A stretch of DNA of 64,000 bases. Source: a virus. Under the pieces are notes generated by a model. The model was not told the origin of the DNA. It saw only the letters and a list, made by a program, of their open reading frames with translations, and searched no databases. The position numbers were made by a program, and so were the translations under genes. The stretch lies in IMG/VR virus record IMGVR_UViG_3300027759_000045, positions 1 through 64,000 of that record; one strand, written 5' to 3'. Shown in pieces: positions 3,264 through 59,072 of the stretch; the first letter of the stretch is position 1; each line of letters starts with the position of its first letter.

Positions 3264-3339
3264 GCGCCTGTAGCTCAGGGGTCAGAGCAGGGGTCTCATA
3301 AACCCTTGGTCGTTGGTTCAAAACCAACCAGGCGCACCA
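3264..3339 (+). tRNA. tRNA-Met (anticodon CAT), CCA encoded
   Basis: A 76-nt cloverleaf. The acceptor GCGCCTG pairs with CAGGCGC, the D arm is GCTC/GAGC, the anticodon loop CTCATAA has CAT at 3297-3299, the T arm is GTTGG-TTCAAAA-CCAAC, and the 3' CCA is encoded. G1-C72 pairing argues against an initiator tRNA. It is an elongator Met tRNA, or possibly a lysidine-modified Ile tRNA, which also has CAT. It is the only tRNA I see in the window. It is co-transcribed with the downstream small genes. Confidence 0.95.
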
Positions 3340-12012: not shown

Positions 12013-12213
12013 ATGAAAAATGCAACATTATCCCGTCCCGAACTGCTAAACGAGTTCGAAGTGCTCCAAGTCGCTGACTACATGGAGCAAAAACATCCTG
12101 ATTTACACTACACAATGACACCGGGAAACCAGTGCATTTGGGTGTACTACCAAAGTATTAACTTGTATTTTGTGTTTCGAGCCGGAAAAATCGCTGACAT
12201 CCAAATAGATTAA
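12013..12213 (+). CDS. Hypothetical protein, 66 aa, probably leaderless
   Basis: 66 residues (MKNATLSRPELLNEFEVLQV at the start). No ribosome site can exist because the -10 box ends 6 nt before the ATG. The frame's next Met is at residue 23. Function unknown. Confidence 0.6.
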   Translation: MKNATLSRPELLNEFEVLQVADYMEQKHPDLHYTMTPGNQCIWVYYQSINLYFVFRAGKIADIQID

Positions 12214-13229: not shown

Positions 13230-13258
13230 TTGACAATCTAAACAAGATCAACTACAAT
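13230..13258 (+). promoter_or_regulatory. Sigma70-type promoter (TTGACA-17-TACAAT) with ATG at predicted +1
   Basis: TTGACA 13230-13235 and TACAAT 13253-13258. Predicted +1 at 13265 is the A of an ATG opening a 13-codon leader ORF. Confidence 0.8.
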
Positions 13259-13264
13259 ATGTAT

Positions 13265-13306
13265 ATGTTGAGCAGTAAGGCACAGCATTTTTTTAAACTT
13301 AGATAG
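13265..13306 (+). other. Leader mini-ORF MLSSKAQHFFKLR at predicted +1
   Basis: ATG to TAG, 13 residues, starting at the predicted transcription start. A further in-frame ATG lies 6 nt upstream, inside the untranscribed region. It ends 21 nt before the gene at 13328. Its translation is unproven. Confidence 0.35.
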
Positions 13307-13327
13307 GCAACATTAAAAGGCAACATT

Positions 13328-15773: not shown

Positions 15774-16066
15774 ACATCGAATCAGTACGCAACTTTCTTT
15801 CCACAACCCTTACCAAAATCTCTGCAGAAACACTGGGTTGGTTGGCAGCCATTGTAATCCACGCTGCCACTATTCCTACCCTGCTGGCCTTGATGACTGG
15901 ACTGAGTGATCGTACACCCAATTTGGATGTTGTACTGTTTGCCTGGGCCGGGCTGGTATTACTGTTCTTTAGAGCAGTGGTGCTCAAAGATTTATTAAAC
16001 ATCATCACAATTGGCCTGGGTTTTATTATCCAAGCCGTGTTGATGGCTTTGATTCTTTTTAAATGA
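15770..16066 (+). CDS. Multi-pass membrane protein next to the wall hydrolase
   Basis: 98 residues with two or three hydrophobic helices (LGWLAAIVIHAATIPTLLAL, VVLFAWAGLVLLFFRAVVL, IITIGLGFIIQAVLMALILF). It overlaps the SleB-type gene and the FkbM gene by 4 nt each. Small size and the hydrolase neighbour fit a holin or a membrane partner for the hydrolase, but another holin candidate exists at 46431. Confidence 0.55.
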   Translation: MNIESVRNFLSTTLTKISAETLGWLAAIVIHAATIPTLLALMTGLSDRTPNLDVVLFAWAGLVLLFFRAVVLKDLLNIITIGLGFIIQAVLMALILFK

Positions 16067-16788
16067 CCATACCCAACTTTGTGGTACTAGACAGCATACA
16101 TGGTCGGTTTATTGTGAACCGACACTGTGCTTTCCAAGCTGAAGCACTGGTCAAAACAGGTGCCACCCACATCGAAGGTGAACTTGCCAACATCTTTGTG
16201 TTGATAGATACCTTGCCCACAGGTGCTGTGATCATTGATGGTGGCGCCAATGCTGGATTCTTTACTATCCCAGTGGCCAACAGAATCCGTGGCCGCGGGC
16301 AACGAATCATCAGCTTTGAACCGCAACTGACACTGTTCCGTGCGCTGTCTGGCAGCCTGGCCTTGAACGACATTGACTTTTGTGATTTACGCTATGCTGG
16401 ACTTGGTGATGCACCTGGCACAGCTCGGGTTCCGGATATCGATTACGGAACACCACAGGACTTTGGCACAGTACAGATCAGTGCAACCGGTTCTGGCACA
16501 CCTGTTGAAGTTACAACGATTGACAGCTTGGGATTGGAACGTGTAGACTTTATCAAGTTAGATGTAGAAGGCTACGAGTGTGCCGCATTGGCCGGCGGAA
16601 TTGGTATGATCCAACAGCACCGGCCCTACATCTGGATAGAGTTCTTTATCACCGGCAAGGAACCAATTAAGGCTAGTTTGGCTGGAGTGCCAGATTACGC
16701 CTTTTTCCAAGTGGATTACCAAAACATGCTGTGTATTCCAAGAGAACGCTTGCCCGAAATTAAGTTTTCCGGCGTGGCCGAATGCTAG
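16063..16788 (+). CDS. FkbM-family methyltransferase
   Basis: 241 residues. AVIIDGGANAGFFTIPVANR (about 63-82) is the SAM-binding loop, IISFEPQLTLF the acidic-strand motif, and VDFIKLDVEGYECAALAGG the conserved FkbM signature. Family members O-methylate sugars and lipids. A likely target is a surface polysaccharide or phage glycan. It is followed immediately by a new early promoter. Confidence 0.8.
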   Translation: MTIPNFVVLDSIHGRFIVNRHCAFQAEALVKTGATHIEGELANIFVLIDTLPTGAVIIDGGANAGFFTIPVANRIRGRGQRIISFEPQLTLFRALSGSLALNDIDFCDLRYAGLGDAPGTARVPDIDYGTPQDFGTVQISATGSGTPVEVTTIDSLGLERVDFIKLDVEGYECAALAGGIGMIQQHRPYIWIEFFITGKEPIKASLAGVPDYAFFQVDYQNMLCIPRERLPEIKFSGVAEC

Positions 16789-16817
16789 TTGACTATTAAA
16801 TCTTGGTGTGCTATAAT
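16789..16817 (+). promoter_or_regulatory. Sigma70-type promoter (TTGACT-17-TATAAT) with ATG at predicted +1
   Basis: TTGACT 16789-16794 directly after the TAG stop, TATAAT 16812-16817, spacer 17. Predicted +1 at 16824 is the A of an ATG. Confidence 0.85.
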
Positions 16818-16823
16818 ACTAGC

Positions 16824-16847
16824 ATGATTAACAGAGTTCAATTATGA
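16824..16847 (+). other. Leader mini-ORF MINRVQL, ATGA-coupled to the next gene
   Basis: ATG at predicted +1, seven codons, stop TGA overlapping the ATG at 16844 (ATGA). This looks like a leaderless initiation site that hands ribosomes to the gene by termination-reinitiation. No ribosome site is otherwise visible for the gene. Confidence 0.45.
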
Positions 16848-17083
16848 CCAATACTAAAAAACCAATGAAGGTAGAATTTGCTCCCGGAGCCCTTGATCAT
16901 CTTGACGTGGAGGATCAAGCAGAACTGGATGCTGTGATGAAAGAAATTACAGAAATGTTTGCCAACATGACGCCAGAAGAACTTGAAGCACAGAGTCGTC
17001 CCATTGACTGGGACAGTCTTGATGACGAAGAACGTGTTATCCTCGAGCAGGCAATCAACAATGAACCAAGGAAACTACAATGA
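16844..17083 (+). CDS. Hypothetical acidic protein, 79 aa
   Basis: 79 residues, strongly acidic and helical (ALDHLDVEDQAELDAVMKEI). No Shine-Dalgarno sequence precedes it; translation probably depends on the 7-codon leader ORF that overlaps its start. It overlaps the next gene by 4 nt. Confidence 0.6.
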   Translation: MTNTKKPMKVEFAPGALDHLDVEDQAELDAVMKEITEMFANMTPEELEAQSRPIDWDSLDDEERVILEQAINNEPRKLQ

Positions 17084-17472
17084 GCATGCATCTTGAACAT
17101 CCTGCACTAAGCTATAACGGCAAGAAAAAAGGCAAGATTAAATTCCGCAACGCAGAAGAAGCACGTAAGGCACGTGAGCTTGACGCATCATGGAAAGAAC
17201 TACAGGCCAAGTGGGAATTAGATGCCAATGAAAAACGTCGTCAACGTGCGCTGGCAGCCGAACCCCTAAGCTACAGTTTGAACACACCCATTGGTCGTAC
17301 AAACACACACCACATTCCCAGCCGTGTGACCCCGGGTTCTTCAACTGCACCTGTTCATAAAGTGTACACAGGTACAAAAGTTCTTGGCATTGGCACCATG
17401 CACAAATCCAATGCAGTACCTATCTTTTCCAACGAAGAGGCACATGACATTGCCACAATGAGGAGAGGATAA
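17080..17472 (+). CDS. Conserved phage hypothetical protein, 130 aa
   Basis: 130 residues. A basic helical N-terminal part (KGKIKFRNAEEARKARELDA) precedes the conserved C-terminal motif VYTGTKVLGIGTMHKSNAVP then IFSNEEAHDIATMRRG, which recurs in many T4-like phages of aquatic bacteria. No function is established. Located in a compact early operon. Confidence 0.65.
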   Translation: MSMHLEHPALSYNGKKKGKIKFRNAEEARKARELDASWKELQAKWELDANEKRRQRALAAEPLSYSLNTPIGRTNTHHIPSRVTPGSSTAPVHKVYTGTKVLGIGTMHKSNAVPIFSNEEAHDIATMRRG

Positions 17473-31951: not shown

Positions 31952-32557
31952 ATGAAGAAATACAAAAATTTAGATAAAGTAATCTTAGCCGATTGTGATG
32001 GTGTGTTGTTAGATTGGGAATGGGCGTTTAATGTTTGGATGCAGGAACACGGATTTGAAGAAGTTCCGGGTAGTAAACTCAACTATGACATGTCAATGCG
32101 ATATGGCATACCCAAAGAGCAGGTTAAAAAATTAATACGCTTGTTCAACGAATCGGCCGCAATTGGCTTTTTGCCTGCACTGCGTGATGCCATGTACTAT
32201 GTTAAACGACTGCATGAAGAACACGGATTTAGATTTCACTGTATCACCAGTTTGAGTCTAGATCCCAATGCACAAAAACTTCGTGAAATGAATCTAAACA
32301 AACTGTTTGGAACATCGGCATTTGAACGTATTGTGTGCTTGGACACTGGAGCCGACAAAGATGAAGTGCTACAAGAATATGAAGGTACTGGGTGTTACTG
32401 GCTTGAAGACAAAATTGAAAATGCCGAAGCCGGATACCGCGCAGGATTAAGGAGCCTTCTGGTAGAGCACGGACATAACATGCACCACTACCATGAAGGC
32501 ATCACAACTGTTAAAAACTGGAAAGAAATTTACCAGTTAATAACTGATCAAGAGTAA
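31952..32557 (+). CDS. HAD-like hydrolase, probably leaderless
   Basis: 201 residues. VILADCDGVLLDWEWAF (about 9-25) is HAD motif I with the DxDG nucleophile; FHCITSLS is motif II-like, and the later GCYWLEDKIENAEAGYRAG is motif IV. It resembles phage HAD phosphatases without a defined substrate. Its ATG lies at the predicted transcription start. It converges with PhoH, with which it overlaps by 10 nt at the 3' ends. Confidence 0.7.
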   Translation: MKKYKNLDKVILADCDGVLLDWEWAFNVWMQEHGFEEVPGSKLNYDMSMRYGIPKEQVKKLIRLFNESAAIGFLPALRDAMYYVKRLHEEHGFRFHCITSLSLDPNAQKLREMNLNKLFGTSAFERIVCLDTGADKDEVLQEYEGTGCYWLEDKIENAEAGYRAGLRSLLVEHGHNMHHYHEGITTVKNWKEIYQLITDQE

Positions 32558-47850: not shown

Positions 47851-47879
47851 TTGACCCGACCCAATAAGTCCTGTATAAT
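47851..47879 (+). promoter_or_regulatory. Sigma70-type promoter (TTGACC-17-TATAAT) inside a terminator
   Basis: TTGACC 47851-47856 directly after the TAA stop; TATAAT 47874-47879 lies within the terminator hairpin. An AGGAC site precedes the DnaJ ATG at 47901. Confidence 0.8.
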
Positions 47880-47899
47880 TAACTGTACAGGACTTTTTT
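47866..47899 (+). terminator. Rho-independent terminator overlapping the dnaJ promoter
   Basis: AAGTCCTGTA (47866-47875) pairs with TACAGGACTT (47886-47895), 10-bp stem, 10-nt loop, then TTTT. It ends the small secreted-protein transcript. Confidence 0.75.
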
Positions 47900-55290: not shown

Positions 55291-55317
55291 AAAAGCCACT
55301 TTGCCCAGTGGCTTTTT
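55291..55317 (+). terminator. Rho-independent terminator
   Basis: AAAAGCCACT (55291-55300) pairs with AGTGGCTTTT (55307-55316), 10-bp stem, 6-nt loop, T run. Confidence 0.9.
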
Positions 55318-55325
55318 CATTTGCG

Positions 55326-55332
55326 CTAAATA
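55326..55332 (+). promoter_or_regulatory. Late promoter-like box CTAAATA, 8 nt from ATG
   Basis: CTAAATA directly after the terminator; the ATG at 55341 follows after 8 nt with no ribosome site. Confidence 0.5.
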
Positions 55333-55340
55333 TTACAATC

Positions 55341-58300
55341 ATGAATATTTCTGAACTAGATTCCTACAACCTTGCTGATGCTGTTAAATTTAATGAACAG
55401 TTGAACCCACGTATCTGGCAGGGCAATAAAATGCGCCCACAGGTGCGGGCCACGCTGTTAAAAATTGCTGAAGACTTTAAACAAAGTTTGGGGATTGGCG
55501 ATTTGAACGTCAAAGACATCACCTTGTCCGGCAGCAATGCTGGTTACACATATACTCCACATAGTGACATAGATCTACACCTGGTGGTGGACCTACCCGA
55601 AGCAGATGTGAGTGAAGTGTATCGCGAGTTGTTTGATGCTAAAAAGTTTCAGTACAACGAAACACACAATATCAAAATTGGTGGCTACGATGTAGAACTC
55701 TATGTGGAAAACGCCAACAAATCGGCAGTGAGTCAAGGCATATTCAGTGTGCTGAATAACGACTGGATCAACATTCCACTGAAAAAACGTTCTACAATAA
55801 ACGACACTGCGGTCAAGAGCAAGTACGATGTGATCAAGCATCGCATTGAATCAGCAGTGAAATCTGGCAGTCTAAAACGACTGACCAACACTGCTGCCAA
55901 GATTAAAAAGATGCGTCAAGCCGGACTTGATCAGCACGGTGAACTGGGTCCAGAAAACATTGCGTACAAGATGTTGCGTTCACAAGGTGTTATACAACAA
56001 CTGTATGATGCCAGAACCAAGGCCAAAGATCGAGCACTGAGTCTTAAAGAACGGTCTATTGAAATTGATAAACCATTTAAATTCACCTACGGATTCAAAG
56101 CCACAGAAGATGTTGGTGCTTCATGGGATGGAGTAAGTCCCACAACACAGATGTTCTTGAATGAAGAACCCAAGTCAGATGAAGATATACTCACAGACTT
56201 TGTGGAGTTTTGTGTTGCAGAACTAGAGATTGAACAGATGCCACGTGTTCGCCTGCGTAAAGATCCGCAGTGGCCTGTGCGGCACAAGACGTTTGGTCGC
56301 TACAACGACAATGAAAAAATGTTAGAAGTGGCCTGGGGTCAACGACACATCATGGATGTGTTGCGCACAGTGGCACATGAACTCACACACAAGCATCAAC
56401 ACGAACGTGATGGCAGTGATATGGGATCTGACGCAGGTGAAACTGGCAGTCCTTACGAAAACGAAGCCAATGCTCGTGCCGGTGTACTCATGCGTGACTA
56501 TGCCAAACTGCACCCGGAACATTTTGCCGCCGGCCAAACAGATGATTTAGCAGAAGCATCAGGATACATCCCCACAAAGAAGCAGGCAAAGGACCCACGC
56601 TTTAGCATGGCCTTGACTCGAGATGTACGTCCAGGTGCGGTGGGTAAGGAAGCAAACAAACTAGGACTAAAGACTGACAATCAAGGACATCCAGGATTGT
56701 TAATGACTGGTTTGGCCAATGCACTGCGTGAGTTTAAAGAAACTGGGCAGATGCCGCTGATATACGAAGATGAGTTGTTTGAAATCAACATGAGCACAGG
56801 TAGCTTACGTCGCGAAGCTGCCAAGACCGGCGCTATTGCTGGCATGGAATTTGAAATGATTGTGCCCAATGTGGAAGGTGGCGACGATGATGGCCAACAG
56901 GAACCTGATTATGAGTATGACGAAGGTGTTAGTAGTATCCAAGACGCATATGACTTCTTCTACGACGGTGATTACAACAGCCGAGGTGATGTTACTCGAC
57001 TGCGTGAGAAGATGCAAAATGAATATTACGAATGGCTAGGTGAGTCGTTTGATACTCGTTGGGACGGTGACGAGTCAGAGTTTGTGTACAACTACCTTAA
57101 AGAAAACGCCAGTGCAGATGAAATTGCAGAAATACTAAGCACAGAACCCGACGCAGACGGTGAATACCCAGAGCCTGATAAACAGGCATATCGCGATGCC
57201 ACAGAAAAAGTTGTCGAAGAAAGCTACGGCAACTACTGGTATGATGCAGCACGTGAAAGTGCGCAGGAAGATTTTAATCAGAATGCAGACCTAGAATCAG
57301 AATGGTTAGAAGATCGAGACTTGAACCGCATGTCAGACATTGAAAATGAATACAACATGAGTTGGCCGCACTGGCAGTCAATGGGCAATGGTGGCGAAGC
57401 CAGCATCGAAGATGTTGCCCAAGAGTTTGAAAATGCCATAGACCGTCCTGTTCAAGCCAGCGGTAACTATCACTCCGGCGGCGTGCGAAGACCCAGCCCA
57501 ACAGCACAGCACTATCTAGTAGAACCTGATGGCAGTTTAGAAGCCAATGACAGCGATGATGTAGGCCTAGAGTTTGTAAGTCCACCTTTGCCTATTGACG
57601 ATATATTAAGTGACTTGAACAAAGTCAAGGCCTGGGCCAAACAATACGGATGCTACACCAACGATTCAACAGGCCTACACATCAACATCTCAGTGCCGGA
57701 CTACAGTAGAGAAAACTTGGACTTTGTTAAACTAGCTCTGTTAATGGGCGACGAGTATGTGCTGGACAACTTTGGTCGTGCTGGCAATACCTACGCTAAA
57801 TCAGCAATGAAATTAGTACGCGATCAAGTGCGCACTAAACCCGACGAAGCTGAACGTTTGTTGGATAAAATGAAAGGCAACCTGGACAGTTTGGCAAGCA
57901 AGGCCATACACTCGGGCGTGACCAGCAAGTACACCAGTATCAACACCAAGGACGGACATATTGAATTCCGCTCACCCGGTGGTGACTGGTTAGATGACAA
58001 CTTTGACAAGATTGAAAACACATTATTGCGTTTTACAGTGGCCATGAGTGCGGCTCTAAATCCAGAAATGTATCGCGAAGAATACCTGAAGAAACTGTAC
58101 AAGTTGTTGACACAGGACAACAAGGGTTCTGACACCATCAAGTACTTCAGTGAATATGTAGCAGGCAAGATTCCTGCAGCCGCACTGCGTAGTTTTGTTA
58201 AGCAGGCACAGTTGGAACGCAAGTTGAAGAAAGATCCAACAGGCGGTGAAAAATATTGGTGGAGTGTTCGTAGTCCTGGCAATAGCAATGCTGGTATAGA

Positions 58301-59072
58301 AGTTGTTGCCTCATCTAAAGAAGAAGCAATTGAAAAAGCCATTGGTGGTTATCCAAGTTGGGCTAACTATCGAAGTTCGTTGGTTGCCAAGCCAATGCGT
58401 CCATATGAACAATCTGCAAAAACTGTTCGCTACGAAATCTACAACAAACAGACTGGCAACTCAGTAGAGGATGCCGATGGAATTACCAATGATGAAGAGG
58501 CATTGGTTCGTCTCAATGATTATATTGAACACGGTCCGCATAGCCTACAACGAGGCCAGGCCACTGCTATGTTTGGTATACGTACTACCGGTGGAGTTGG
58601 AATTGTTGATATAGACATGCCAATAGCCCAGGGTCGTGCTGCCACAAGCCCAACTGGACAGTGGAAAATGATTGACGGATTAAATCGTGAATTATATCGT
58701 TTCCGTCCTGCAGAAAACACAAGAACAAGAGCCAATTACTTGGCAAGAGTATGGGCAGAAACACATAACTTTGACGGTAACTATCAAGTTGATCCAGTGG
58801 AAGAAAACGATGTGGTGCCGCAACCGGACGTGATCCCGCTACAGCAACCAACACCCGTTCCAGGCAGTACCGCAGACCTAGCACAACGCCGAGCACAAGG
58901 TGGCGAGTTTACCGGTGCTTGGAAGATTGTAGATTCTGATGGTAATGAACTGCATAGATTTTCCGGCATAGGCAATCAACAGCGTGACGCTAATCGTGTG
59001 GCCACACAGTGGTTGACCGACAATGGCTACAGCTATGGCACAGATGTCACTGTGCTACCAATAGTGAGTTAA
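55341..59072 (+). CDS. Giant protein: nucleotidyltransferase + zinc peptidase-like + amidoligase-like
   Basis: 1243 residues. About 55-90: GSNAGYTYTPHSDIDLHLVV, the GS...DxD core of nucleotidyltransferases (poly(A) polymerase/MNT type). About 335-375: AHELTHKHQHERDG with HELTH at 346-350 (zinc peptidase HExxH). From about 510: GMEFEMIVP, later GLEFVSPPLPIDD and NDSTGLHINIS, then HIEFRSPGGDW, the pattern of amidoligase (COOH-NH2 ligase) enzymes. C-terminal repeats follow (WKMIDGLNRELYRF and WKIVDSDGNELHRF). A late promoter and the neighbouring prohead-type genes suggest it is packaged in the capsid or acts in infection. None of the three activities is shown. Confidence 0.65.
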   Translation: MNISELDSYNLADAVKFNEQLNPRIWQGNKMRPQVRATLLKIAEDFKQSLGIGDLNVKDITLSGSNAGYTYTPHSDIDLHLVVDLPEADVSEVYRELFDAKKFQYNETHNIKIGGYDVELYVENANKSAVSQGIFSVLNNDWINIPLKKRSTINDTAVKSKYDVIKHRIESAVKSGSLKRLTNTAAKIKKMRQAGLDQHGELGPENIAYKMLRSQGVIQQLYDARTKAKDRALSLKERSIEIDKPFKFTYGFKATEDVGASWDGVSPTTQMFLNEEPKSDEDILTDFVEFCVAELEIEQMPRVRLRKDPQWPVRHKTFGRYNDNEKMLEVAWGQRHIMDVLRTVAHELTHKHQHERDGSDMGSDAGETGSPYENEANARAGVLMRDYAKLHPEHFAAGQTDDLAEASGYIPTKKQAKDPRFSMALTRDVRPGAVGKEANKLGLKTDNQGHPGLLMTGLANALREFKETGQMPLIYEDELFEINMSTGSLRREAAKTGAIAGMEFEMIVPNVEGGDDDGQQEPDYEYDEGVSSIQDAYDFFYDGDYNSRGDVTRLREKMQNEYYEWLGESFDTRWDGDESEFVYNYLKENASADEIAEILSTEPDADGEYPEPDKQAYRDATEKVVEESYGNYWYDAARESAQEDFNQNADLESEWLEDRDLNRMSDIENEYNMSWPHWQSMGNGGEASIEDVAQEFENAIDRPVQASGNYHSGGVRRPSPTAQHYLVEPDGSLEANDSDDVGLEFVSPPLPIDDILSDLNKVKAWAKQYGCYTNDSTGLHINISVPDYSRENLDFVKLALLMGDEYVLDNFGRAGNTYAKSAMKLVRDQVRTKPDEAERLLDKMKGNLDSLASKAIHSGVTSKYTSINTKDGHIEFRSPGGDWLDDNFDKIENTLLRFTVAMSAALNPEMYREEYLKKLYKLLTQDNKGSDTIKYFSEYVAGKIPAAALRSFVKQAQLERKLKKDPTGGEKYWWSVRSPGNSNAGIEVVASSKEEAIEKAIGGYPSWANYRSSLVAKPMRPYEQSAKTVRYEIYNKQTGNSVEDADGITNDEEALVRLNDYIEHGPHSLQRGQATAMFGIRTTGGVGIVDIDMPIAQGRAATSPTGQWKMIDGLNRELYRFRPAENTRTRANYLARVWAETHNFDGNYQVDPVEENDVVPQPDVIPLQQPTPVPGSTADLAQRRAQGGEFTGAWKIVDSDGNELHRFSGIGNQQRDANRVATQWLTDNGYSYGTDVTVLPIVS

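Follow-up and report, generated by a model that had tools for sequence, protein, structure and literature searches.

A Predicted Leaderless Mini-ORF Overlapping the Start of a 79-aa Gene in a Huge Phage

Introduction

How could ribosomes reach a phage gene whose predicted message begins only 20 nt before the start codon? This question is raised by a locus in a 64,000-nt stretch of DNA (the window) that belongs to a phage record of 346,856 bp. An earlier note on this DNA had described an ATG at the predicted transcription start that opens a seven-codon ORF running into the start of a 79-aa gene, and had proposed that ribosomes load on this 5′ AUG and reinitiate at the gene.

The kind of arrangement is already known from mycobacterial leaderless small ORFs, the 5′-uAUGs of Escherichia coli, and the AUGA-overlapping uORF of PPE2. 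In mycobacteria, a leaderless RTG opens an ORF of 5-50 codons, which terminates in a TGA that forms RTGA with the start that follows (Shell et al. 2015, PMC4633059). In these coupled small ORFs, the peptide is lost and the linkage is kept, and coupling is enriched there over a random control (23/220 vs 32/1000; PMC4633059). In addition, the Mycobacterium gene ppe2, which has no Shine-Dalgarno (SD) sequence, needs translation of an AUGA-overlapping uORF and is reached mainly by termination-reinitiation (PMC11260477). Our literature search, limited to open-licence papers, found no phage reports of leaderless coupling.

Results

The Promoter, the Mini-ORF, and Its Neighbors

The features of the locus are listed in Table 1. 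The spacing TTGACT-17-TATAAT makes a predicted promoter that is near consensus. The ATG at 16824-16826 begins at the seventh base after the -10 element, and promoter geometry predicts +1 at 16824. The codons that follow are ATG ATT AAC AGA GTT CAA TTA TGA, and the TGA (16845-16847) overlaps the ATG (16844-16846) of the 79-aa ORF, the two AUGs lying 20 nt apart. Thus, the sequence is as the earlier note described it, both for the seven-codon ORF opened at predicted +1 and for the ATGA overlap. With its seven codons, the mini-ORF falls within the size range of the small ORFs of Shell et al. (5-50 codons), and the RTGA-type overlap is found here and also in four related contigs (L001-L004). A single ATGA is by itself unremarkable.

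Table 1. Positions in the window of the features around the mini-ORF
Feature	Position	Strand	Remark
Methyltransferase-like gene (phrog_8156)	16063..16788	+	Upstream; conserved flank of the promoter
Predicted sigma70-type promoter	16789..16817	+	TTGACT, 17-nt spacer with TG before the -10, TATAAT
-35 element, TTGACT	16789-16794	+	
-10 element, TATAAT	16812-16817	+	
Discriminator, ACTAGC	16818..16823	+	6 nt; sets the ATG at predicted +1
Putative leaderless mini-ORF, MINRVQL	16824..16847	+	7 codons, TGA stop; +1 predicted
CAGAG, weak SD remnant	16832..16836	+	Within the mini-ORF, 7 nt upstream of the ATG of the 79-aa gene
Stop/start overlap, ATGA	16844..16847	+	
79-aa gene	16844..17083	+	Its own end forms ATGA on the 130-aa ORF
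130-aa gene (phrog_27048 family)	17080..17472	+	ATGA-coupled to the 79-aa gene

The 79-aa protein matched no PHROG and no Pfam family. Searches for relatives in named phages found none at either the protein or the DNA level, and none of the gene was found in bacterial genomes. Meanwhile, an Rfam search gave no match at the mini-ORF. A leader-peptide attenuator was considered and rejected: there is no predicted terminator-like site just past the mini-ORF, the fold is weak, and the ATGA junction follows immediately.

The Ribosome Site of the 79-aa Gene

The earlier note held that the gene has no ribosome site of its own. This is a fair description, because the predicted anti-SD pairing of CAGAG (-2.4 kcal/mol) is unremarkable, being equalled or bettered by 38% of random positions; the neighboring genes reach -5.4 and -9.4 kcal/mol. 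However, the description is not absolute, since CAGAG does stand at SD spacing. The leader and the start of the gene are weakly structured by prediction. In most relatives, an SD is embedded in the mini-ORF, and many of them carry a good one (GGAG), while none is evident in L249 and L272. The GGAG inside the mini-ORFs of many relatives indicates that SD and coupling can coexist, and ordinary internal initiation could suffice in relatives with an embedded SD.

The SD spacing of CAGAG and the SDs embedded in the relatives support a rival explanation, in which 30S subunits initiate in the ordinary way at the 79-aa gene, helped by a weak SD and a nearly unstructured 20-nt leader, and the mini-ORF is incidental or the remnant of a deleted gene. 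The remnant version draws on one related contig, L005, in which the same promoter and the same ATGATTAA start belong to a 75-aa gene; a further 79-aa gene comes next, ahead of the same downstream gene. A deletion could therefore have left the start behind. In L005, AAAGG lies upstream of the homologue of the 79-aa gene. The 75-aa protein was sought in the present phage by a search that carried no positive control, and it was not found.

The Same Locus in Related Contigs

Contigs L001-L004 (in the 4 kb that were compared, L001 does not differ from L004) retain promoter, mini-ORF, and ATGA. Their MINRVQL frame differs by one synonymous change (TTA to CTA), and their discriminator is one base shorter (ACAGC, 5 nt), so that some transcripts there could begin at the G of the ATG. 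The mini-ORF diverges by 1/24 vs about 14% in the flanks, which is not significant with so few bases. Thus, the conservation of MINRVQL was discarded as a proof in its own right. In four other contigs (L058-L061), the promoter leads to ATGATTGAGCCACAAAGGATnTTTCAATGAC, a nine-codon mini-ORF that is ATGA-coupled directly to the phrog_27048 gene, and in L062, the promoter opens an 86-aa gene that appears to be leaderless.

The Phase of Mini-ORFs at the phrog_27048 Gene

In relatives, the phrog_27048 gene stands directly after +1 mini-ORFs. Two profile searches with this gene yielded 92 non-redundant loci (counted after deduplication alone), of which 49 have a strong promoter at most 60 nt away. 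At 21 non-redundant loci, a +1 ATG opens an upstream mini-ORF, and the phase is the same in 20 of them (19 ATGA, 1 TAATGA), with distances of 20, 23, or 26 nt from the uAUG to the gene. The only exception is L243 (MFKIT). The peptides vary, examples being MITRRIQ, MTTWRTL, MISNSGVLQ, MIDNYGVLQ, MIEPQRIFQ, MNHYRILQS, MLTMILPV, and MSTQQLSL. When similar sequences were collapsed, 7/8 groups were in phase (P 0.003), the eight groups including MINRVQL of the window itself. At the 26 loci without a +1 ATG, the phase is mixed (8/4/14), many sister promoters have ATA instead of ATG at +1, and at two loci, the phrog_27048 gene is itself apparently leaderless. In all 92 loci, the longest upstream ORF ends in ATGA in 53 cases (31 ORFs of >15 codons and 22 mini-ORFs). 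A 4-nt overlap also joins the annotated genes 113 and 114 of Delftia phage PhiW-14.

These phase data, which are comparative, are the strongest evidence that we obtained. As judged from these sequences, it is the frame that is conserved rather than the peptide: the architecture is kept and the peptide is not at the adjacent phrog_27048 locus, while for MINRVQL itself, the comparison covers close relatives only. Phase conserved without the peptide points, as the most likely case, to translation of the mini-ORF and to coupling by termination-reinitiation.

The same result bears on ordinary initiation at the gene. A relic should drift out of phase, yet at the neighboring gene, similar mini-ORFs whose sequences are unrelated keep the phase again and again, and ATGA coupling is enriched at other sites too (see below). 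We regard an incidental or relic mini-ORF as rather unlikely.

It also bears on a second rival, in which the 5′-terminal AUG is only a landing site and ribosomes relocate to the gene AUG with the mini-ORF untranslated, as proposed for E. coli ptrB. In ptrB, changing the 5′-uAUG to AUC left expression at <8%, and a start-stop uORF restored 40% (PMC4965119); the closeness of the two AUGs in the window would also suit such relocation. However, mere landing needs no frame, and the length changes between loci are multiples of three. Phase kept despite differences of 3 nt and 6 nt fits translation of the mini-ORF with reinitiation better than recruitment by the 5′ AUG by itself, and we consider the landing-site explanation unlikely. 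Finally, it is very improbable that the pattern reflects selection against harm, with a +1 AUG favored for transcription or easily arising (AT at +1/+2 is common, and many sister promoters have ATA) and the other phases giving inhibitory or fused products, because the ATA variants show that ATG is easily avoided, yet many lineages keep it, and because this explanation likewise requires translation of the mini-ORF.

Leaderless Starts across the Record

A scan of the 346,856-bp record with a strict promoter pattern (TTGAC-18-TATAAT) found 34 promoters, every one of them on the + strand. An ATG lies exactly 6 nt past TATAAT in 8/34 (P about 6e-7), and at offset 5 or 7 in 0/34, against a background of 2.2% per position. 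Of these eight, five lead into ORFs of 66 to 321 codons and the other three into mini-ORFs (7, 12, and 24 codons). Each of the mini-ORFs finishes in NTGA on the start of a longer ORF, with ATGA at 16844 and near 333.8 kb and with a TTG start near 83.2 kb. The 24-codon mini-ORF precedes a 230-aa lipoprotein-like ORF and is kept in a relative with a changed peptide. Most of the remaining promoters precede leaders some 15-30 nt long that carry an AAAGGA-type SD, often with ATA at +1. AT occupies +1/+2 in 18/34 strict promoters, and the next base is A or G equally.

Two of the proteins with such starts, the 66-aa MKNAT protein and the 112-aa MELKKQSRKK protein, are conserved in relatives from residue 1 at the +1 ATG, and in another apparently leaderless protein (about 305-337 aa), conservation begins near residue 4. 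N-termini conserved from the first residue argue that leaderless starts at a +1 ATG are really used. Thus, leaderless initiation looks like a genuine habit of this phage group, as far as the genomes can tell.

The apparently leaderless genes with an ATG 6 nt past TATAAT lie at 12013-12213 and 31952-32557 of the window and at 270430, 305066, and 342100 of the record. Many leaders in the record have ATAG at +1 in common, with AAAAAGGA preceding the start. In addition, at 13230-13308 of the window, a TACAAT promoter has a +1 ATG that opens MLSSKAQHFFKLR; relatives have MLSN or MLRN at this place, and the ORF at this position in the relatives does not overlap the next gene.

Several other promoters were noted. 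At 47868-47893 of the window, an inverted repeat, GTCCTG-TATAATTAACTGTA-CAGGAC, spans a promoter -10 and is kept in a relative, and it is a possible operator. At 105496-105680 of the record (L018), two similar promoters are separated by about 100 nt, the 75 nt that follow contain no ATG, and the promoters may drive small RNA genes. A tRNA with a CAT anticodon (window 3264-3339) lies directly behind a promoter; it does not look like an initiator tRNA, because its first pair, judged by eye, is T-A. Elsewhere in the window, a 1254-aa ORF (55308-59072) has a Pfam match to an amidoligase domain and below-cut-off Pfam matches to nucleotidyltransferase and M78 peptidase domains.

Coupling beyond This Locus

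A small ORF counted as coupled when it formed ATGA with the first ATG of another ORF of ≥60 aa. After deduplication, related and other viral contigs supplied 67 ORFs of 5-50 codons opened by a +1 ATG, of which 15 were coupled, vs 437/13,449 arbitrary small ORFs (3.2%; P 4e-9). With the phrog_27048 locus left out, 9/61 were coupled (P 1.6e-4), the case in the window being counted. A stricter comparison, drawn with upstream ATGs away from +1, gave 8/24 against 16/41, with no significant difference. Coupling as something peculiar to +1 uATGs was thus not supported, since upstream ATGs away from +1 were coupled about as often. It follows that upstream ORFs in these leaders are coupled in general and that placement at +1 is a separate feature. 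A loose pattern scan of viral contigs returned mostly chance matches.

Discussion

Taken together, we think that the leaderless mini-ORF is probably translated and feeds the 79-aa gene by termination-reinitiation. The promoter would yield an mRNA starting with AUG. Ribosomes would bind this 5′-terminal AUG in the leaderless manner, read seven codons, and terminate at the UGA inside AUGA. Then, the same ribosome or its 30S subunit would reinitiate at the AUG that shares bases with this stop and begins the 79-aa gene. That gene would in turn be AUGA-coupled to the phrog_27048 gene. The peptide would be a by-product, and selection would act on three features: a +1 AUG, an uninterrupted frame, and the overlap of stop and start. 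The weak SD and the scant structure predicted where the gene begins agree with this scheme. The sequences themselves show the promoter, the place of the ATG, the overlap, its recurrence, and the conserved phase, whereas we infer the exact +1, the translation of the mini-ORF, the reinitiation, and how much of the expression depends on the mini-ORF.

The loading and reinitiation proposed in the earlier note gain support from the leaderless habit and from the phase at 20/21 loci. However, the idea that the gene relies on the mini-ORF alone, as it was put there, is not supported, given the SDs in the mini-ORFs of most relatives and the weak CAGAG here.

As in the mycobacterial type, coupling is enriched over control (15/67 vs 3.2% here), and the architecture is conserved while the peptide is not. 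In mycobacteria, transcript starts were mapped and ribosomes profiled, whereas here the device occurs in a huge phage and the starts are predicted. Furthermore, unlike the mycobacterial type, the leader of one gene family here alternates between a mini-ORF, a real leaderless gene, and an SD leader. The likeness to the E. coli 5′-uAUG messages (Beck, Fleming, Janssen 2016, PMC4965119) is that an AUG at the mRNA 5′ end opens a uORF before the coding sequence; the E. coli genes are conventionally SD-led, whereas the 79-aa gene has a weak SD and a start that overlaps the stop of the uORF. The ppe2 uORF is SD-led and under a B12 riboswitch, unlike the putative leaderless mini-ORF here. In the bicistronic termination-reinitiation of M13 genes V-VII (PMC2268962), stop/start proximity likewise passes ribosomes to the next cistron, but the upstream cistron is a full gene and not a mini-ORF.

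If the preferred reading is true, the device of leaderless initiation plus coupling is used by viruses outside mycobacteria. Gene finders would overlook such mini-ORFs and may misplace leaderless starts. In addition, phage sequences would offer many aligned natural variants of one junction (mini-ORF, full gene, SD leader), so that the interplay of leaderless initiation and reinitiation would be directly testable with short reporters. Tentatively, it is possible that leaderless starts are in systematic use throughout a large group of huge phages, which would supply selected genes with ribosomes via exchangeable leaderless mini-ORFs, with the +1 AUG and ATGA replacing or assisting the Shine-Dalgarno sequence, and perhaps favoring phage messages when host initiation is altered by infection.
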